From: an uncultured Gemmatimonadales bacterium
GTDB taxonomy: Bacteria > Gemmatimonadota > Gemmatimonadetes > JACCXV01 > JAHWKZ01
DNA: 15,422 nucleotides
Assembly: GCA_947259315.1 (NCBI GenBank)
Contig: CAMYLR010000024.1
Location: 14,279-29,700 of the forward strand
Reading direction: 5' to 3'
The notes beneath the pieces were generated by a model. The model was not told where the DNA came from, made no database searches, and worked only from the letters and a program-made list of their open reading frames with translations. Position numbers and translations under genes: made by a program. Shown here one piece after another: positions 710-15,422 of this stretch. The number at the start of each line of letters is the position of its first letter. Within the stretch, counting starts at the first letter, position 1.

Positions 710-1071
710 AGATGTTGCGCGTCGTCAATGCAACCCGTGACCGCGAGCTGGGCAATCGCGTCTGGCTGGCGAATCGCTGGTGGCCACGTCTTCGAGGGCT
801 ATTGGGCCGTGGACCATTAGAGCCGGGATCGGGCATGGTCCTGGAACCGTGCAAGTCGGTTCACATGTTCGGGATGAAATACTCGCTCGATGTGGTGTTC
901 GTGAACGCAGAAGGGGAAGTCGTCGCGATGTACCCCAAGCTGGACCCCGGCAAGCGGACGCCCTGGCACAAGCCCGCGCGAAAGGCGATCGAGCTGCCGG
1001 TTGGGACGCTCTCCGCGACCGGGACCGAGATCGGTGACGTTCTGACTTGTCAATTTGCGGAGGCCGTCTAA
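706..1071 (+). CDS. DUF192 family small protein
   Basis: A 121-residue protein of the DUF192 family, whose biochemical role is not established. The signature region is seen at about residues 41-80: GSGMVLEPCKSVHMFGM followed by LDVVFVNAEGEVV, with Cys49 and His53 in the usual places. Many DUF192 proteins carry a signal peptide; this one has none, so it is probably cytoplasmic. The GTG start overlaps the tadC stop by four bases; an ATG two codons later (712) is a possible alternative. The stop overlaps the next ATG by one base. Its position between tadC and the AAA+ ATPase suggests co-translation with the pilus platform, but the link is only by context. Confidence 0.85.
   Translation: MKMLRVVNATRDRELGNRVWLANRWWPRLRGLLGRGPLEPGSGMVLEPCKSVHMFGMKYSLDVVFVNAEGEVVAMYPKLDPGKRTPWHKPARKAIELPVGTLSATGTEIGDVLTCQFAEAV
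1057..1063 (+). promoter_or_regulatory. Ribosome binding site that fixes the AAA+ ATPase start
   Basis: GCGGAGG lies seven bases before the ATG at 1071. The frame also has an upstream TTG at 1047, but that codon has no such motif and would lengthen the overlap with the DUF192 gene, so the ATG is preferred. Confidence 0.6.
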
Positions 1072-2645
1072 TGAACGCTGGATTCGGAGTCAAAACCGCC
1101 ACTCCCAAGGCGGGATCACGCAAACCGCCAATTCCCGAGTCGATCGAGGAGACCGGCCTGCTCGATGAAGCGATCAGCGATCTAATCATCAAAACGCTCT
1201 ATACCAAGGGCGCTCACACCGGGCAGGAACTGAGCGAAGCGGTGTGCTTGCCATTCCGACTGCTCGACGATCTCTATCACGATCTGCAGCACCGCCAGTT
1301 CATCGAGGTTCGCGGGACGCAAGGTCATGGCCGCGGCGGGTACGTGTACGATCTCACCACTCAGGGGCGGGATCGGGCGCGCGAGGCGATGGTTTCGAAT
1401 CAGTACGTCGGACCGGCTCCGGTCCCGATCGACGTGTATCGAACCTGGGTCGAGGCTCAGACGATTCGCAAGGTGCACATCACCGTGGATCGAATCCAAT
1501 CTGGGTTTGGGCACTTGGTGCTGGACCCGGAGTTTGTCGAGCACCTCGGTCCAGCGATCAACTCGGCGAAATCAATGTTTCTCTACGGTGACTCCGGCAA
1601 CGGCAAGACCAACATGGCGGAGTCGATCGCCCGGATGTTGGGTGGTGACATGTACGTCCCCTACGCGGTCGACATCGAGGGGCAGATCATGATCACCCAC
1701 GATCCGGTCTACCATCGGCCAAAACCCGATGAAGCGGTAACCGTATCCGTGGACGGAGAGGAGTCGACGCTGCTGGAGTCGGCGCCAACGTACGATCGAC
1801 GATTCGCCCGTGTCGCGCGTCCAGTGGTGTTCACCGGCGGCGAGCTCACGCTCGAGCAGCTCGATCTACAGTACGATCCGACGGCCAAGGTGTACCAAGC
1901 ACCGTTCCAGGTGAAGGCCAACGGCGGGGTGCTCATTATCGATGACTTTGGCCGGCAGCAGGTACGACCGCGCGATCTCCTCAACCGCTGGATCGTCCCG
2001 CTCGAAAAGCGGATCGATTTCATGACGCTGCACACCGGTCACAAGTTCCCGGTGCCGTTCGATTGCCTGCTCATTTTTGCGACGAACTTGAACCCGCTCG
2101 ATCTCGTGGACGAGGCGTTCCTGCGTCGGATTCACTACAAGATCCATGTGCCGAGCCCGGACTACGAGCAGTTCGTTCAGATTTTTCGACGCGTCTGCGT
2201 TTCGAGACAGATACCGTTTGTGGCCGGCCGGGTCGCCTACATCTACCGCCAGTACTACGAGCCGAACGGTATCTCTCCACGGAACTGTCACCCGCGGGAT
2301 ATCGTCGATCACTTGTGTGACTCGGCTCGGTACCTGGGGACCAAACCGGAGTTGACCGTTGATCTGCTGGATCACGCCTGCAAGTCGTACTTCCTCGACA
2401 TGCCGGATGAAGATTACATCGTCGATCCGTCGGAGTTCATGGGAGACCAGCGGGCCCAAGCAACCGCCGCTATGGCGATGACCGTGACCCACGGTGGTTC
2501 CGGGGACGAGGAAGCAGCGCCCGCGACCGAGTCCGCCGATGCGGGTGGTATTGAAGAAATGCCGGCGACGGAAGGCGAACCGGCGGTAACAACCGACGAG
2601 GAGCGAGGGCCCGGGCAGCCACCCGGTAGCGCGCCGGCGCTATGA
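1071..2645 (+). CDS. Winged-helix AAA+ ATPase in the tad operon
   Basis: A 524-residue cytoplasmic AAA+ ATPase of unassigned role. Residues about 30-110 look like a winged-helix domain (an LSEAVCLPFRLLDDLYHDL helix pair, then a basic Gly-rich wing RGTQGHGRGGYVYDLT). The AAA+ core follows: Walker A GDSGNGKT at 173-180 (Lys179), Walker B GVLIIDD at 286-292, sensor-1-like Asn339 in IFATNLNP, and an arginine pair at 352-353 (FLRRIHYKI) placed like an arginine finger. A lid with NCHPRDIVDHLCDSARY follows. The last 60 or so residues are acidic, Pro/Gly-rich and probably disordered. There is a long insert between Walker A and B, seen at about 200-285. The start is the ATG overlapping the DUF192 stop. 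The 3' end overlaps the J-protein gene (ATGA). The wing could bind DNA or, as in some secretion ATPases, only protein. A chaperone-like remodelling role at the pilus is inference. Confidence 0.85.
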   Translation: MNAGFGVKTATPKAGSRKPPIPESIEETGLLDEAISDLIIKTLYTKGAHTGQELSEAVCLPFRLLDDLYHDLQHRQFIEVRGTQGHGRGGYVYDLTTQGRDRAREAMVSNQYVGPAPVPIDVYRTWVEAQTIRKVHITVDRIQSGFGHLVLDPEFVEHLGPAINSAKSMFLYGDSGNGKTNMAESIARMLGGDMYVPYAVDIEGQIMITHDPVYHRPKPDEAVTVSVDGEESTLLESAPTYDRRFARVARPVVFTGGELTLEQLDLQYDPTAKVYQAPFQVKANGGVLIIDDFGRQQVRPRDLLNRWIVPLEKRIDFMTLHTGHKFPVPFDCLLIFATNLNPLDLVDEAFLRRIHYKIHVPSPDYEQFVQIFRRVCVSRQIPFVAGRVAYIYRQYYEPNGISPRNCHPRDIVDHLCDSARYLGTKPELTVDLLDHACKSYFLDMPDEDYIVDPSEFMGDQRAQATAAMAMTVTHGGSGDEEAAPATESADAGGIEEMPATEGEPAVTTDEERGPGQPPGSAPAL

Positions 2646-3517: not shown

Positions 3518-3523
3518 TATATT
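3518..3523 (+). promoter_or_regulatory. Possible -10 element (TATATT) just before the tonB-like start
   Basis: TATATT stands out in this GC-rich DNA, directly after the terminator. A start of transcription some seven bases downstream would fall almost on the ATG at 3534, giving a very short or absent leader. This fits the lack of any Shine-Dalgarno motif there. No good -35 is visible at the right distance, so support is weak. Confidence 0.3.
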
Positions 3524-3533
3524 GGATTATTCG

Positions 3534-4418
3534 ATGTCGATGCTCGAAGATGATTCGTCGCGCTTTGCGCTGCTCTTTTCGGTGCTTGTGCACGCGCTGT
3601 TGGTGGCTCCGGTCTGGGGCTGGTTGGTGAGCGTTCAACCAGTGGCAGCCGAAGCCGATGCCCCGCCGATGCGGTTCACCTTTGTAGAGCCCCGAGACGC
3701 TCCAGAAGAGCCGCCCGATGTGCCGACCCCGCTCCTCTCGACACGAGATCAGCGGGCGGCGCAGGAGAGCGCTCCCTCTGAGTTGCCGGAGGGCTCGGCG
3801 TTCCAGTTGGGGCAAACGCCCGTGCCGGTCGTCCCGCGGGCACCGGGCTCGATGGCCAACGCGGGTTCGACGGTTCCGCAGTCACGGTCGAGCAACTCCC
3901 GGACGTTGGGCGCCGAGTCGGTCGAGCGACCGGTTGGCGAGGGTCCGATGTCCCCTTCCGGTGATGCGCGGTTGGCGGTTCGTGAAAAGCCGATTGGACT
4001 CCCCGCGGGTCGTTCGTCGAACCCCGGAAGTGGGGCCAGACTCCCGGCGCCGGAAGTCGATCAGAGGCTCACGCGAGCTCGGGCCGGCAGCACGTTCAGC
4101 TTGAATACCACCGCGTGGGAGTATGGGCCGTATATGGCGCGCCTCAAAGCCCAGATCGAGGAGCACATTTTCCCGCCGCCGGCGTTTTACTACGGCACCG
4201 CCGCGTGGGCGACGCGGGTGCGATTCCGGATCGCACCCGACGGTCGGCTCATGTCGCTGGAGCTCCTCGACCACCGCGGTGTTCCCAACCTTCAGTACGT
4301 GGCGACATCCTCGATCGAAGCGGCCGCCGATTATGAGCCGCTGCCACCGGGTTTCCCAGAACCGCTGCTGGAGATCACCGGCAATTTCTACTTCAACGTG
4401 GCTCCACCGGGCCGTTAG
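3534..4418 (+). CDS. TonB/TolA-type energy transducer
   Basis: A 294-residue periplasm-spanning protein. Residues 11-31 form the single N-terminal membrane anchor, which contains the SxxxH motif (Ser16, His20) that TonB uses to couple to ExbB/ExbD. A long Pro/Ser/Gly-rich periplasmic linker (about 40-190) follows. A C-terminal domain of the TonB/TolA fold (about 200-290) contains MARLKAQIEEHIFPPP and VRFRIAPDGRL. It probably carries proton-motive energy to an outer-membrane receptor or to envelope structures. The start is uncertain: TTG 3522, ATG 3534 and ATG 3540 are in frame and none has a clear ribosome site. ATG 3534 puts the motif at the same numbering as in E. coli TonB. It is the first gene of the exb operon; exbB starts 17 bases after its stop. 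The domain could equally be called TolA-like, and the partner receptor is not in the window. Confidence 0.82.
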   Translation: MSMLEDDSSRFALLFSVLVHALLVAPVWGWLVSVQPVAAEADAPPMRFTFVEPRDAPEEPPDVPTPLLSTRDQRAAQESAPSELPEGSAFQLGQTPVPVVPRAPGSMANAGSTVPQSRSSNSRTLGAESVERPVGEGPMSPSGDARLAVREKPIGLPAGRSSNPGSGARLPAPEVDQRLTRARAGSTFSLNTTAWEYGPYMARLKAQIEEHIFPPPAFYYGTAAWATRVRFRIAPDGRLMSLELLDHRGVPNLQYVATSSIEAAADYEPLPPGFPEPLLEITGNFYFNVAPPGR

Positions 4419-4435
4419 CGCTCGGCGAAGGACGC

Positions 4436-5065
4436 ATGTTGGAGACGCTGGGTCAAGGGGGCATCGTGATGATCCCGTTAGCGCTGAGCTCGGTGCTTGC
4501 GCTATGGGTAATCCTGGATCGAGCCTGGCGACTTCAGCGCCGGCGAGTGCTGGTACCGGAGATCGTGAGCGTGCTCGAGAGTCTACGGGGGCCATCCGAT
4601 ATTCCGCTGGCGAAGCTGATTTGCGACCGCAATCCAGGACCGTTTTCGACGATCGTCCAGGCAGCTCTCGATCACAAGGGCCGATCCAAACACGAGATCC
4701 GTGAGCGGGTAGAGCACCAAGGCCGGCAGGAGATCGTACACTTGGAGCGTGGTTTGGGGTTGTTGGAGACGATCGCGGCAATCGCCCCGTTGTTGGGTCT
4801 GTTGGGCACCGTGTTGGGCATGATCGAGGTCTTCGACGTCGTGGCGCAGCAGGGCGCCGGCCAGGCCCAAGAGTTATCCGGTGGAATCTCCCAGGCGCTG
4901 ATCACTACCGCGACCGGCCTCTCGATTGGCATCCCCGCCTTGGTGGCGTACAACTACTTCGTCGGCAAAGCCGAGCGGCTGGTGCTCGACATCGAGGACC
5001 ACACCGACCGGCTGATTCAATCGGTGATGCTTTTCCGCGAAGCGGAAGATACCGATGCGTCTTGA
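4436..5065 (+). CDS. exbB: MotA/TolQ/ExbB proton channel family protein
   Basis: A 209-residue inner-membrane protein of the ExbB/TolQ family, which forms the pentameric proton channel that powers TonB or TolA. Three membrane segments are seen at about 8-27, 112-134 and 152-177. The conserved channel region is clear: LLGLLGTVLGMIEVF, then GGISQALITTATGLSIGIPALVAYNYF. A charged cytoplasmic stretch lies between segments 1 and 2 (about 28-110). The ATG has a GAAGGA motif only three bases before it. The 3' end overlaps exbD by 11 bases. With no tolA, tolB or pal alongside, ExbB is slightly more likely than TolQ; sequence alone does not separate them. Confidence 0.92.
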   Translation: MLETLGQGGIVMIPLALSSVLALWVILDRAWRLQRRRVLVPEIVSVLESLRGPSDIPLAKLICDRNPGPFSTIVQAALDHKGRSKHEIRERVEHQGRQEIVHLERGLGLLETIAAIAPLLGLLGTVLGMIEVFDVVAQQGAGQAQELSGGISQALITTATGLSIGIPALVAYNYFVGKAERLVLDIEDHTDRLIQSVMLFREAEDTDAS

Positions 5066-5474
5066 TCCGGGTCGTCGTCGCAAGACGCTGATCAACGTCA
5101 CGTCGCTGATCGACGTCGTCTTCTTGTTGCTCATCTTCTTCGTTGTGACATCCACGTTTCTCGAGCAGCCCGGAATCGATCTGACACTACCCGAGGCCGG
5201 ATCGGCTGAGCTGACCGTGCGCGAGCAGGTCACGCTCGGTGTCGACGCAGACGGCGAGATCTTTCTTAATGGTGATCCGGTCGTGCTCGAAGGATTGGCG
5301 GATCGAATCGAGCAGGCACTCGAACGAGCGGAAACCGAACGCGTGCTGCTCGAGGCTGACTCGCGGGTTTCGCACGGTCGCGTCGTGGCGCTAATGGACG
5401 CCGCCCGCCGGGCCGGTGCCGGGGCGCTGCTCGTAGCGACGCGTCCGCCCGAAGAAACCCTCCGGGAGCCGTGA
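5055..5474 (+). CDS. exbD: ExbD/TolR biopolymer transport protein
   Basis: A 139-residue protein with a short cytoplasmic Arg-rich N-terminus, one membrane helix (about 15-36) and a periplasmic domain. The helix holds the essential proton-path aspartate, here Asp20 in SLIDVVFLLLIFFVVTSTF. The periplasmic part has IDLTLPEAGSAE and LEADSRVSHGRVVALMDAARRAGA, both typical of ExbD/TolR. It starts inside exbB (11-base overlap), and its TGA overlaps the GTG of the histidine kinase. It is the usual partner of the upstream ExbB and TonB-like proteins. Confidence 0.92.
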   Translation: MRLDPGRRRKTLINVTSLIDVVFLLLIFFVVTSTFLEQPGIDLTLPEAGSAELTVREQVTLGVDADGEIFLNGDPVVLEGLADRIEQALERAETERVLLEADSRVSHGRVVALMDAARRAGAGALLVATRPPEETLREP

Positions 5475-10725: not shown

Positions 10726-10905
10726 ATGAGCCTCTGGACTCGTTTTTGGGCCGACGACTCGGGTCAGGACCTAGCGGAGTACGCGCTCCTGATCTCGCTG
10801 ATCGCTCTAGTAGTGATCGGTGCTGTTACGCTGCTCGGCACGCAGATCAACACCGTGTTCACGAACATCACCAACGCCCTCGCGGGCTCCGGTGGTGGAT
10901 CGTAG
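10726..10905 (+). CDS. flp3: Flp-type pilin precursor (third copy)
   Basis: A 59-residue prepilin. A 13-residue leader, MSLWTRFWADDSG, is followed by QDLAEYALLISLIALVVIG with the Glu+5 and Tyr+6 processing signature, giving a 46-residue mature pilin. The C-terminal part is TQINTVFTNITNALAGSGGGS. The ATG has a strong GGAGGG site ten bases upstream (10710-10715); reading through from the flp2 end in this frame is therefore not needed. It lies 43 bases after flp2 with no promoter visible between. Confidence 0.93.
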   Translation: MSLWTRFWADDSGQDLAEYALLISLIALVVIGAVTLLGTQINTVFTNITNALAGSGGGS

Positions 10906-10939
10906 ACCACGCAACCCAAACCGGAGGAGGACCCATCCA

Positions 10940-11122
10940 ATGAGCCTCTGGACTCGCTTCTGGGCCGACGACTCCGGCCAGGACCTAGCCGAATACGCGC
11001 TGTTGATCGCGCTGATCGCGCTGGTCGTGATCGGTGCAGTCACACTGCTCGGCACCCAGATCAACACCGTGTTCACGAACATCACCAACGCCCTGGCAGG
11101 TTCGGGTGGTGGTGGGTCGTAA
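10940..11122 (+). CDS. flp4: Flp-type pilin precursor (fourth copy)
   Basis: A 60-residue prepilin nearly identical to the third copy. It has the same 13-residue leader and the same G|QDLAEY cleavage site, with Ala in place of Ser in LLIALIAL and the tail GSGGGGS. The ribosome site GGAGGAGG (10923-10930) is stronger than that of the other pilin genes, hinting that this is the most translated copy. Two hairpins follow the stop. Both copies may be redundant dosage genes. Confidence 0.93.
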   Translation: MSLWTRFWADDSGQDLAEYALLIALIALVVIGAVTLLGTQINTVFTNITNALAGSGGGGS

Positions 11123-11239: not shown

Positions 11240-11755
11240 TTGACTGCAAACCCTAGTCTGATCGCGCTCGTTCTCGTCTTGGCAGTTGCCGTGGTGTGGG
11301 ATCTGCGCACGCGTCGCATCCCGAATTGGTTGACCGTCGGGGCGGTTGGTGCCGCGCTCGGTCTGCGCGCGGTTCAAGGTTTCGAGCCGTTGGGATTGGG
11401 CGTGCTAGGGCTGGCGCTGGGTTTGGCGATGTCGTTGCCGCTGGTCTTCGCAGGTGGGCTGGGTGGTGGTGATGCCAAGCTGTTGGCGGCGGTGGGTGCG
11501 TTTCTGGGACCGGGAAAATTGATCGTCGCACTCTTGGCGATGGCGCTCGTCGGGGGTGTGCTGACGGTGGCGGTCGCAACCCGCCGCGGGGTTATGTACG
11601 AGACGCTTCGTCACACATGGCGGCTCACCGGCCAGTTGGTCGGATTGGGCTCTGAAACTGAACCGCGCCGAACGCTCGGTACCGCTGGAGCTTTGACGAT
11701 TCCGTACGCGGTGCCGATCGCTATTGGCGCTTTGGCAGGCCTCATCTACGGATAG
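11240..11755 (+). CDS. tadV: Prepilin peptidase of the Tad pilus (TadV/CpaA)
   Basis: A 171-residue inner-membrane aspartic protease, a short-form type IV prepilin peptidase lacking the methylase domain. The two catalytic aspartates are Asp21 in VVWDLRTRRIPN and Asp78 in GGLGGGDAKL. Hydrophobic segments make up most of the chain (for example 7-20, about 50-72, 92-112 and 153-170). It would cleave the Flp prepilins and the TadE pseudopilin after the Gly preceding QxxxE. The start is a TTG, with GAGAGG five bases upstream (11229-11234); no better start is seen. It follows the pilin genes after a 117-base spacer containing hairpins. Its placement between flp and tadE is common in tad loci. Confidence 0.92.
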   Translation: MTANPSLIALVLVLAVAVVWDLRTRRIPNWLTVGAVGAALGLRAVQGFEPLGLGVLGLALGLAMSLPLVFAGGLGGGDAKLLAAVGAFLGPGKLIVALLAMALVGGVLTVAVATRRGVMYETLRHTWRLTGQLVGLGSETEPRRTLGTAGALTIPYAVPIAIGALAGLIYG

Positions 11756-11779
11756 CTCGAGCTCGCACGGGGGGTGCTC

Positions 11780-12238
11780 ATGATCAATCGTTTCTCTAGA
11801 ACAACGGTCGCGCGGCGTCGCTGGCTGCGCTCCAACGTGGGCCAGTCGATCGTCGAGGTGGCGATCGCGATGCCGATTCTGCTCGGGCTGGTGATCGGGA
11901 TCTTCGAGTTTGGCCGCGCCTGGAACATCCGTCAGGTGACGACCAATGCGGCCCGCGAGGGCTCGCGTTTGGCGGTCATTCAGGGCGCCGACCAGCTGGT
12001 TGTCGAATCGCAGATCGAAGGTCGGATGAGTGATGCCGGCCTCGACCCCGGCCTCGCCACAATCAATATCAGTGGCATGTGTGCCGGGGGGGGGTGTGTC
12101 GGTCAGCCGGTTTCGGTTCAAGTCGACTACCCGGTTCAGTTCACGTTTATCGGGCCGATCGTCGATTTGCTCGGCGGCGGAGGCTCGATCCCCGGCTCGA
12201 TCAACATGACGACGACCTCGACCATGCGACACGAATAG
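11780..12238 (+). CDS. tadE: TadE-like pseudopilin
   Basis: A 152-residue protein of the TadE family. An Arg-rich leader ends at Gly21, followed by QSIVEVAIAMPILLGLVIGIFEFGRAW. Glu is at +5, so it fits cleavage by the neighbouring peptidase, as known for TadE/TadF pseudopilins. After the membrane helix come NAAREGSRLAVIQG and a periplasmic domain. Cys101 and Cys106 flank three glycines encoded by a run of nine G (12086-12094); the two cysteines may form a disulfide. ATG 11780 is preferred over GTG 11774 because of the G-rich site just upstream. It starts 24 bases after tadV and ends ten bases before cpaB. Confidence 0.88.
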   Translation: MINRFSRTTVARRRWLRSNVGQSIVEVAIAMPILLGLVIGIFEFGRAWNIRQVTTNAAREGSRLAVIQGADQLVVESQIEGRMSDAGLDPGLATINISGMCAGGGCVGQPVSVQVDYPVQFTFIGPIVDLLGGGGSIPGSINMTTTSTMRHE

Positions 12239-12248
12239 GTGGTGACAG

Positions 12249-13061
12249 ATGCGACGTAGACGAATCCTCATCGCGTTGGTACTGGCGGTAGTCTCGGGTA
12301 TCGCCGCAGCGTACTTGGCGCTTGGCTATTTGCAGCGAACGAACATCGTGCCGACACCGGCGGTGGCTTCCTCCGGCACCTTGGTAGCGGTCGCCGCGCG
12401 GGACTTGGCGATGGGTACCGTGTTGGACCCGGCCGACGTCGAGATCGTCGATTGGCCGACCGCTTCGGTGCCGGTCGGTTACGCCCGGTCCGCCGACGAA
12501 GTCGTCGGCAGGGGGTTGATCACCACGGTCAGCGCGGGTGAGCCTCTGCTCACGTCCAAGCTGGCCAGCAAGGAGGCCGGTGGGGGTTTGCCGATCGTCA
12601 TTCCGGAGGGGATGCGCGCGGTGAGCGTCAAAGTCGACGAGGTGATCGGCGTGGCGGGTTTTGTGTTGCCGGGCACCCGGGTCGATGTCCTGGTGACGCT
12701 CAACCCGAGCGCCGAGCCCGAGTTAGCGGCGACGCGGGTGATCCTGCAGAACGTCCAGACGTTGGCCGCCGGCCAGACGATTCAGCGTGACCAGGATGGC
12801 ACGCCACAGACGGTCACCGTGATCACGCTGTTGGTCACGCCGGACCAGGCGCAGAAGCTGACGCTCGCCTCAACCAAGGGGAGAATCCAGCTCGCGCTCC
12901 GCAACACGCTCGACATGGAAGAGGTCGATACGACGGCGATCCGAGCCGGGAACTTGATCCAAAAGGCCGACCGGCCGGTGGTCAAGAAGACCGGGAAGCG
13001 TCGCGTGCGGCCACAGGTAGAGGTTTACAACGGTGCGAAGCGTAGCGTAACCACGTTCTAG
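12249..13061 (+). CDS. cpaB: Flp pilus assembly protein CpaB/RcpC
   Basis: A 270-residue protein with an N-terminal membrane anchor (about 6-27). A SAF domain follows at about 43-105 (TLVAVAARDLAMGTVLDPADVEIVDWP, then GRGLITTVSAGEPLLTSKL), then the RcpC/CpaB domain at about 115-235 with IPEGMRAVSVKVDEV and GFVLPGTRVDVLVT. The family acts in the periplasm and is thought to support the secretin channel of the Tad system. The ribosome site AGGTGG (12237-12242) overlaps the tadE stop, six bases before the ATG. The basic C-terminal end (KKTGKRRVRPQ) is of unknown use. Confidence 0.93.
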   Translation: MRRRRILIALVLAVVSGIAAAYLALGYLQRTNIVPTPAVASSGTLVAVAARDLAMGTVLDPADVEIVDWPTASVPVGYARSADEVVGRGLITTVSAGEPLLTSKLASKEAGGGLPIVIPEGMRAVSVKVDEVIGVAGFVLPGTRVDVLVTLNPSAEPELAATRVILQNVQTLAAGQTIQRDQDGTPQTVTVITLLVTPDQAQKLTLASTKGRIQLALRNTLDMEEVDTTAIRAGNLIQKADRPVVKKTGKRRVRPQVEVYNGAKRSVTTF

Positions 13062-13078
13062 TGACACGAGGAGAGAAG

Positions 13079-14260
13079 ATGCCCGACTGCCAGCGGAACG
13101 AAGGAATACTGGGAGATTCGCGGGGTGTTTCCATGGTTCTCGTGGCGATCACCATGGTCGCACTCTTGTCTGCGACCGCGCTCGCGATCGACATCGGGAT
13201 GTTGTTGAACGCTCGCACCGAAGCCCAGCGGGCTGCCGATGCGGCGGCATTGGCGGGTGCCGGGTCCCTCGTCACGTTCCCGCAAACCGTTTTCGCGGAT
13301 GCTGAGGCCAGGGCCGAGAACAAGGCCATCGAGTACGGCGCACTGAACACCGTGACCGATATCCCCGTTACCCTCTTGCCGGAGGATGTCGACGTTGATT
13401 TAGCGCAGGAGCGAGTCACAGTGACGGTGCGGCGGATCGGTGTGCGCGGCACGGCTGTTGGCACGTGGTTCGCCAATGTCTTTGGCGTCAGCGAGGTCGA
13501 CGTCGAGGCGCGAGCCGCTGCGGAGGCACAGCCGTCCGGCGCAGCGCGGTGCGTGAAGCCGTTCTCGATCTACGACTATTTCGACGACGTCAACGAAAAC
13601 GGCGAGTGGGACGACGGCATCGACGAGTACGATCCGGCGATCCATGGCTATGGTTCCGACTGGCGGAATTTCGGCCAACCCGGCTATGAGGGACCGCCCA
13701 ACTACGTGAACGACTGGGGCCGTCCGATCACGATCAAGGGCAACAGCAAGAAAGGCGACCCGTGTTGCCCGGGGACCGGACCCAGTTGGTACTATCCGTG
13801 GGACATCCCGCAGATCAGCGGCGGACCGGCGAGCGGTGCCAATCGCTACCGCTGGAACATCGCCAACTGCAACCCGTCGACGGTCTATACCTACACGCCG
13901 TACGACAAAGAGAACGGCAACATGTGGGGACCCACGATACAAGGTATCGAGGATCTCATCGCTAAGGACCCAGGCGCCCATTGGGTGGGCGAGGAGGACG
14001 GTTACGTAGCAGGGAGTGCGTGGGGAGACAACTGGGAGGCGAGCCCACGGATCGGGATCGTTCCGACGTTCGACCCGGGGTTGGCGTTCGAGCCCGGTAA
14101 GAAGGAGTACGAGTTCACCAATTTCATGGCTGTGTTTATCGAAGGCGTCACCGGTGGCGGGAACAACCAGCAGGTCCACGGTCGAATCCTCTACGCGACA
14201 GGTGTTGGCGGAGGAAGCGACCCAGGCTCGACAGTCAAGTTCATTCAGTTGGTCGAGTAA
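13079..14260 (+). CDS. TadG-like pilus assembly protein with a putative calcium loop (copy 1)
   Basis: A 393-residue protein. The N-terminus is the Tad/TadG membrane region: RGVSMVLVAITMVALLSATALAIDIGMLLNARTEAQRAADAAALAGAG. A soluble, presumably periplasmic or exported part follows, with VTVTVRR and TWFANVFGVSEVDVEARAAAEA as usual in this family. Beyond that is an uncommon C-terminal region. It holds a DxNxNGxxDxGxD loop (Asp170, Asn172, Asn174, Gly175, Asp178, Gly180, Asp182) followed by YDPAIHGYGSDW. Further on are WYYPWDIPQ, YRWNIANCNP and a Cys-Cys pair in GDPCCPG. No von Willebrand MIDAS motif (DxSxS) is seen, unlike many TadG proteins. The ATG at 13079 has AGGAGAG four bases upstream; the GTG at 13061 is less likely. 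The next gene is a close paralogue. Confidence 0.85.
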   Translation: MPDCQRNEGILGDSRGVSMVLVAITMVALLSATALAIDIGMLLNARTEAQRAADAAALAGAGSLVTFPQTVFADAEARAENKAIEYGALNTVTDIPVTLLPEDVDVDLAQERVTVTVRRIGVRGTAVGTWFANVFGVSEVDVEARAAAEAQPSGAARCVKPFSIYDYFDDVNENGEWDDGIDEYDPAIHGYGSDWRNFGQPGYEGPPNYVNDWGRPITIKGNSKKGDPCCPGTGPSWYYPWDIPQISGGPASGANRYRWNIANCNPSTVYTYTPYDKENGNMWGPTIQGIEDLIAKDPGAHWVGEEDGYVAGSAWGDNWEASPRIGIVPTFDPGLAFEPGKKEYEFTNFMAVFIEGVTGGGNNQQVHGRILYATGVGGGSDPGSTVKFIQLVE

Positions 14261-14294
14261 CGAGATCAGAGGGCAGGCCAGAGGGAGACAGAGG

Positions 14295-15422
14295 ATGGGC
14301 AGGCGAAGTGAGGGACCTATGAGAGAGACGCGCGGCGTGTCGATCGTTTTTGTAGCGATCTCGATCGTCGCCTCGATGGCGGCTGTGGCGTTGGCGATCG
14401 ACGTCGGCATGCTGTTGAACGCCAGGACCGAGGCTCAGCGGGCGGCCGACTCGGCCGCGCTGGCCGGCGCAGGTTGGCTCATACCCAACCCCAACGACGA
14501 TGTCGGGGCCGAGACCGAAGCGATCAACTATGGGGCGCTCAACACGGTGACCGATATGGCGGTCACGCTGTTGCCCCAGGACGTCGATGTCGACCTGCCG
14601 CAACAGAAGGTCACCGTCACCGTACGTCGGCGAGGGGACCGGGGCACGGCGGTGCCCACGTGGTTCGCGAGAGTCTTTGGCATCAACGAGGTCGATGTCG
14701 AGGCTCGGGCGGCGGCCCAAGTTGTACCCGCTGGATCGGCCCGGTGTCTCAAGCCGTTTGCGATCCCGGATGCGTTCGAGGACGTCAACGGAAACGGTGT
14801 CTTCGACTTTGGCGTCGATAACTACGATCCGCTGACCCACGGGTACGGAAGCGACTGGAGAGATCCCGGCAACTACGGAGATGATGGGCTTGATTACATC
14901 GAGGACTTCGGCCGACCGGCGCAGCTTAAACAGGGCGGACCGTCTGATCCGCCACAACCGGGCTGGTACTACCCGTGGGACATCCCGCAGGTCGACGGCA
15001 GTCCTGCGGTCGGCGGCGACAAGTACCGTTGGAACATCGCCAACTGCAACCCCACGGTGGTCACGATCGGTGATGAATACTGGGTCGAGAACGGCAACAT
15101 GATCGGCCCCACCGCTCAGGGCGTCCTCGATCTGATCGCCCAGGACCCCGATGCATACTGGGACACGACCGAGAACACCGTAAAGGACAGCAACCGTGCT
15201 CCCAACTGGGAGTCGAGCCCACGCGTCGGCATCGTACCGGTGTGGCATCCCGGCCGTCCGTTCGATCCCGGCAAACAGCCAATCGAGTTCTCGAACTTTA
15301 TCGCGATGTTCTTCGAGGGCGTGACCGGCACCGGTCAGAACCAGGAGGTCCAGGTCCGGATCATGTACGCGACCGGTGTCCCCGGTGGAGGCGCTCCAGG
15401 TGCCGCTCCCAAAGTTGTCCAG
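14295..15422 (+). CDS. TadG-like pilus assembly protein with a putative calcium loop (copy 2, 3' truncated)
   Basis: The frame stays open for 376 codons to the window edge. By alignment with copy 1, whose end reads KFIQLVE, only a few residues are probably missing. The N-terminus (RGVSIVFVAIS, AIDVGMLLNARTEAQRAADSAALAGAG) and the Asp/Asn loop (Asp163, Asn165, Asn167, Gly168, Asp171, Gly173, Asp175, then YDPLTHGYGSDW) match copy 1 position by position. So do WYYPWDIPQ, YRWNIANCNP, SPRVGIVPVWHPG and FFEGVTGTGQNQ. It lacks the Cys-Cys pair of copy 1; QP-rich sequence replaces it. The ATG at 14295 has AGGGAG seven bases upstream; ATG 14319 is an alternative. It lies 34 bases after copy 1, so it arose by tandem duplication and has since diverged. 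Confidence 0.85.
   Translation, partial: MGRRSEGPMRETRGVSIVFVAISIVASMAAVALAIDVGMLLNARTEAQRAADSAALAGAGWLIPNPNDDVGAETEAINYGALNTVTDMAVTLLPQDVDVDLPQQKVTVTVRRRGDRGTAVPTWFARVFGINEVDVEARAAAQVVPAGSARCLKPFAIPDAFEDVNGNGVFDFGVDNYDPLTHGYGSDWRDPGNYGDDGLDYIEDFGRPAQLKQGGPSDPPQPGWYYPWDIPQVDGSPAVGGDKYRWNIANCNPTVVTIGDEYWVENGNMIGPTAQGVLDLIAQDPDAYWDTTENTVKDSNRAPNWESSPRVGIVPVWHPGRPFDPGKQPIEFSNFIAMFFEGVTGTGQNQEVQVRIMYATGVPGGGAPGAAPKVVQ

Follow-up and report, generated by a model that had tools for sequence, protein, structure and literature searches.

Many bacteria have Tad pili, and only lately has it been recognised that the pilus tips are functional parts that can be exchanged. Such exchangeable tips are made of TadEFG-like minor pilins, whose distal domains vary (PMC12075869), and CpaL, a pilin-vWA protein, has been modelled at the tip (PMC12607857). 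PilY1 has Ca2+ loops that are important for the function of the pilus (PMC8833165). Loops of the PilY1 type (Dx[DN]xDGxxD) end at position 9; a ligand at position 12 belongs to the EF-hand (PMC8833165, PMC3123361). In the literature searched, nothing linked bacterial TadG proteins with EF-hands.

Here we describe two TadG-like proteins, c1 and c2, encoded in a window of 15,422 nucleotides (the whole stretch of DNA analysed) from the genome of an uncultured Gemmatimonadales bacterium (2.4 Mb, 33 contigs). Their common C-terminal domain of about 240 residues is previously undescribed and occurs in several phyla on a known TadG-type protein, a modest novelty. It is a putative tip-type domain that is unnamed in the libraries searched, it contains a candidate metal site, and it is found in phyla whose Tad pili are almost unstudied.

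The tad locus and its missing secretin

The genes from Flp to c2, with the domains and loops of c1 and c2, lie on the forward strand. The locus contains genes for a Flp pilin (10820..11122; PF04964, E 1.3e-10), a TadV/CpaA-type prepilin peptidase (11240..11755; PF01478, E 1e-18), a TadE-like minor pilin (11774..12238; PF07811, E 3e-14) and, directly upstream of c1, CpaB/RcpC (12249..13061; PF16976, E 5e-31). c1 and c2 stand between CpaB and CpaE, and CpaF, TadB and TadC complete the set. When the locus genes of relatives are assigned by matching them to the Tad proteins of this genome, the usual order in Gemmatimonadota, Krumholzibacteriota and Acidobacteriota is Flp-TadV-TadE-CpaB-secretin-[c1/c2 family]-CpaE-CpaF-TadB-TadC.

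A secretin gene is absent from the tad locus of the window (12249-14260) and from its orthologue in the same genus (L055:4736-7896); two family copies fill the slot. Since CpaB ends at 13061 and c1 starts at 13079 or overlaps it, no secretin is hidden in the window locus. The genome holds only two secretins, one in the tad locus of a third family copy, c3 (L009:7660-9042), and one on contig 19, and its two Tad systems may share one secretin. Tandem family copies were also found in G310, G035 and L065. A tandem pair does not, as a rule, accompany a missing secretin, because G035 has both a pair and a secretin.

In nearly all of these tad loci, across phyla, TadC is followed by an AAA ATPase gene, usually together with a DUF192-like gene (window 1047-2645, L010:14360-15676, L063 and others). 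Between the two tad loci lies a set of TonB-like, ExbB-like and ExbD-like genes (window 3522-5474), recognised by reading the ORFs.

The TadG-like proteins c1 and c2

The initial annotation had reported tandem TadG-like ORFs. Both were found, each with PF13400 (Tad) at the N-terminus (40.3 bits in c1 and 39.9 in c2; curated cut-off 22.3). c1 (13079..14260; PF13400 E 4.1e-10) has 393 residues when read from ATG 13079, which has an AGGAG-like site upstream; GTG 13061 is the alternative start. It is 66% identical to its L055 orthologue. c2 (PF13400 E 5.4e-10), which also has an orthologue in L055, extends from 14295 to 15422 and on past the window end. Its start is likelier to be ATG 14295 than 14319, because MGRRSEGPMRETRG aligns with MRKKPSEGTLRDARG of the orthologue. 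The protein can be read up to an 8-base N run in the assembly and has its C-terminus beyond the window end. This run, at window position 15422, corresponds to L010:9701-9708, within the end of c2. Its length is probably inexact, because the LVE codons and the stop that follow it are out of frame.

Compared with the respective orthologue, dN and dS are 0.26 and 1.01 for c1 and 0.19 and 0.85 for c2; between c1 and c2 they are 0.30 and 1.51, the latter near saturation. As dN is well under dS for each copy, both have been maintained as functional genes. Read from the sequence, the prepilin cleavage consensus G/A-X4-F/E is fitted by c2 (G-VSIV-F) and by a fourth copy, c4, and is not fitted by c1 (G-VSMV-L).

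Family alignments place the C-terminal domain at residues 152-393, approximately, of c1 (13532..14257) and at 14745..15422 in c2. Past PF13400, neither Pfam nor NCBIfam gave a match in this part, which bears out the earlier impression of a region without a named domain. The translations of both copies likewise contain the shared motif DVNxNGxxDxGxDxYDPxxHGYGSDW and the conserved stretches WYYPWDIPQ, YRWNIANCNP and SPRxGIVP, as annotated. Signatures of the family as a whole are a Cys in C[VL]KPF.[IV]PD, a second Cys in YRWNI..CN, E.GNM.GPT.QG..DLI..DP.A.W, SPR and a C-terminal LVE. The two Cys (13550-13552 and 13868-13870 in c1, by family alignments) are near-invariant, a conservation that suggests a disulfide.

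Spread of the family

The genome has four full copies. c3 (L009:9046-10197) belongs to the second tad locus, just upstream of the window's on the same contig; c4 (L011:8770-9915) stands alone on a separate contig, outside any tad locus. Such an orphan with a 12-position loop is present in both genomes of the genus (L011:8770-9915, DVNGNGEFDPED; L056:5593-6705, DVDGDGVFDPED), in neither case in a tad locus. Two more Tad proteins of the genome are a short one of 195 aa and a TadG-like one (L012:7064-8724) that has a TadE-like neighbour; the latter is called vWA-type because its sequence reads DLVLVLDQSGS.

Among named relatives, those closest to the proteins of the window come from Gemmatimonadota MAGs. 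With the C-terminal domain of c1 as the only query, 48 of 394 genomes of the same class gave a match; with a 30-member profile the domain was found in 40 of 295 genomes of the class and in 14 of 247 Acidobacteriota genomes. One member was found in Krumholzibacteriota (L062). For the scan of contigs a 30-row profile was too diverse and a 12-row profile worked.

The Asp/Asn loop

The loop reads DVNENGEWDDGID in c1 (13586..13624) and DVNGNGVFDFGVD in c2 (14781..14819), with D1, N3, N5, G6, D9 and D13 in both, as seen from the sequence and from comparison within the family. Set against the Dx[DN]xDG calcium loop (Rigden), which also calls for a further acidic ligand, D1, N3, G6 and D9 are present and position 5 is Asn (Asp in c3). 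Where the EF-hand has its acid, at position 12, c1 and c2 have Ile or Val, and the Asp follows at 13.

The family (59 members, 23,798 residues) was searched with a PROSITE-like EF-hand pattern that allows any hydrophobic residue at position 8. All 25 matches fell within the 70-residue zone where the loop was expected, and the remaining sequence gave none; in shuffled zones the pattern was matched by a mean of 0.24 members. A looser pattern covering the 12- and 13-position forms matched within the zone in 32 of the 59 members, with 2 matches outside and 0.6 after shuffling. It added L019, of the same family; L105 (Acidobacteriota) was noticed separately. The 12-position form (D1, N/D3, N/D5, G/R6, D/E9, E/D12) is present in 25 of the 59 members, with D at 1, N or D at 3 and 5, and E or D at 12 in 25/25 and D or E at 9 in 24/25. 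Since the pattern itself accepts no residue but D at position 1, D, N or S at 3 and 5, and D or E at 12, the free evidence is of another kind: Ser never occurs at 3 or 5, position 9 is preferentially D/E, all these loops share a single location, and shuffling yields hardly any.

Loops of 12 residues occur in close relatives (L018, DEDEDGAYDPGE; c4, DVNGNGEFDPED; L030, DVDGDGVFDPED) and beyond the class, in the Acidobacteriota L094-L097 (L095, DANGNGAFDAGE) and in the Krumholzibacteriota member L062 (DVNGNGTMEVGE). Even the strict PROSITE EF-hand pattern is matched by L062, L023, L084 and L024. L023:1498-2799 has two consecutive EF-hand-type loops at the loop site, DKNGNHVWDAPD and DLNGNGIVDPGE.

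That the last acid is at 13 had been observed before and is true of c1 and c2. This form was found in seven members, c1 and c2 among them; the extra residue before the last acid is present in c1, c2, c3 and their orthologues. In a tree of 54 rows computed without the loop columns the form is limited to the c1/c2/c3 clade, which is nested with relatives that have the 12-position form and E or D at 12. Thus it is a one-residue insertion and not a separate motif.

In 27 of the 59 members, among them entire clades of family f3 and of Acidobacteriota, no intact loop is present while the rest of the domain is kept; conservation in homologues thus holds for part of the family. Among the loopless members there are a few near misses, e.g. 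L021 with Ser at position 1. The tree implies that members with and without the loop have interchanged several times at the least, gain and loss not being separable on it.

The initial annotation had likened the loop to calcium loops such as those of PilY1. The calcium-type ligand positions do recur in relatives from three phyla, but the last ligand of a PilY1-type loop is at 9 and not at 12. As PilY1 loops end at 9 and c1 and c2 keep D9, Ca2+ binding is plausible with or without D13. Going by the sequence, binding of Ca2+ by the loop is likely.

Structure models and fold searches

AlphaFold2 models made with 15 rows, of c1 (pLDDT 72.8, pTM 0.56) and of L058, a relative with the 12-position form (pLDDT 73.5, pTM 0.59), were mediocre. 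They have a long N-terminal helix and a small sheet, followed by an alpha/beta domain. No helix adjoins the loop in these two mediocre models, in which the loop region has a pLDDT of 57-80.

The profile and structure searches that had been proposed for the C-terminal domain gave no fold match in the PDB. The family profile did not match the sequences of solved structures, and Foldseek with the two models returned nothing from the PDB at E <= 0.001, an absence that is uninformative on the fold. The rows from VIA-align were scattered and were set aside (best Z 8.5 for inositol monophosphatase over 91 residues; lower rows with T4 gp25 at Z 5.5 and the Lon N-domain and cereblon at about 3). c1 and c2 have no Pfam vWA match, i.e. 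no vWA domain with MIDAS DxSxS, and no match to the PilY1 beta-propeller PF05567 at E <= 10. Distant kinship to vWA was rejected as well: hhalign against the vWA-type TadG of the same genome gave a probability of 1.6%.

Possible function of c1 and c2

On balance we favour the interpretation that c1 and c2 are paralogous minor pilins of TadG type at the tip of a Tad (type IVc) pilus, carrying a tip domain that calcium stabilises. The helix at the N-terminus and the small beta-sheet (PF13400 and the part following it) would anchor them in the inner membrane, and this part would later sit alongside TadE in the tip of the filament. The domain of about 240 residues would be exposed at the pilus end. 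Its loop (Dx[DN]x[DN]G..D..[ED]), just after the first conserved Cys, would bind one Ca2+ and thereby pin a segment that is exposed, in the manner of PilY1 or dockerin loops; this would let the domain fold, or withstand force, once outside the cell. The two copies could be alternative or partner tips. The tip location is our best guess, made by analogy with the Kil tips and CpaL.

Possibly, c1 and c2 are instead TadG anchors that serve assembly in the periplasm or inner membrane and are never exposed at a tip. The gene mostly lies between secretin and CpaE, amid assembly genes, and the function of TadG is not settled in general. However, the models have a pilin-like N-terminus and the work on Kil and CpaL places TadG-like proteins at the tip (PMC12075869, PMC12607857), so that an anchor role seems unlikely to us. 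Much the same can be said of the idea that the loop is an Asp/Asn-rich turn, structural or ligand-binding without a metal, for which calcium is irrelevant. The Asn at position 5 of c1 and c2, the insertion ahead of the last acid and the lack of the loop in about half of a family that keeps the rest of the domain would all fit such a turn. Yet positions 1, 3, 5, 9 and 12 are kept across three phyla while 2, 4, 7, 10 and 11 vary, and four members (L062, L023, L084, L024) fit the strict EF-hand pattern; hence we give a metal-free turn little credence.

The initial annotation went further and suggested that the domain may be a calcium-responsive adhesin or a tip module of the Tad pilus; in such an adhesin Ca2+ would turn surface binding on and off. 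PilY1 and the MIDAS adhesins offer an analogy (PMC8833165, PMC12607857), and the domain is found in tip-type minor pilins. But the loop is dispensable within the family, and Ca2+ sites like this one often have a stabilising role when they lie outside the cell. The term is more than the evidence carries, and we regard such a switch as improbable. With about half of the family lacking the loop and keeping the rest, it is not the loop that defines the function of the domain; calcium would thus be accessory and probably stabilising. A broader version of the preferred reading is tentative and less probable: the family could be a new class of Tad-tip domain, present in three phyla or more, whose Ca2+ loop replaces the vWA MIDAS and determines how the tip folds or how strong it is mechanically, with the paralogues as exchangeable tips that share one secretin.

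Comparison with known systems

Like the TadG/PF13400 minor pilins, including the KilN-type tips of the Myxococcus Kil system, c1 and c2 have an N-terminal Tad domain and are encoded in a tad locus. They further share with them an extra C-terminal domain and the presence of several paralogues per genome. They differ in that this domain is unnamed, has two conserved Cys and often carries an EF-hand-type loop. CpaL and the vWA-type TadG proteins have in common with c1 and c2 a pilin-like N-terminus joined to a domain with a metal site (a candidate one in c1 and c2) that should lie at the Tad tip; in contrast to them, c1 and c2 have no vWA domain or MIDAS.

What likens c1 and c2 to PilY1 is a Dx[DN]x[DN]GxxD surface loop on a protein of the pilus tip, with the tip placement of c1 and c2 taken by analogy. 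Unlike PilY1, c1 and c2 have no PilY1 domain, and in most loop-bearing members the acid at position 12 is kept as well. This 12-residue ligand pattern connects most loop-bearing relatives with the EF-hands and dockerins, from which they differ in that no helices flank the loop in the two mediocre models and, for c1 and c2, in a last acid at position 13.
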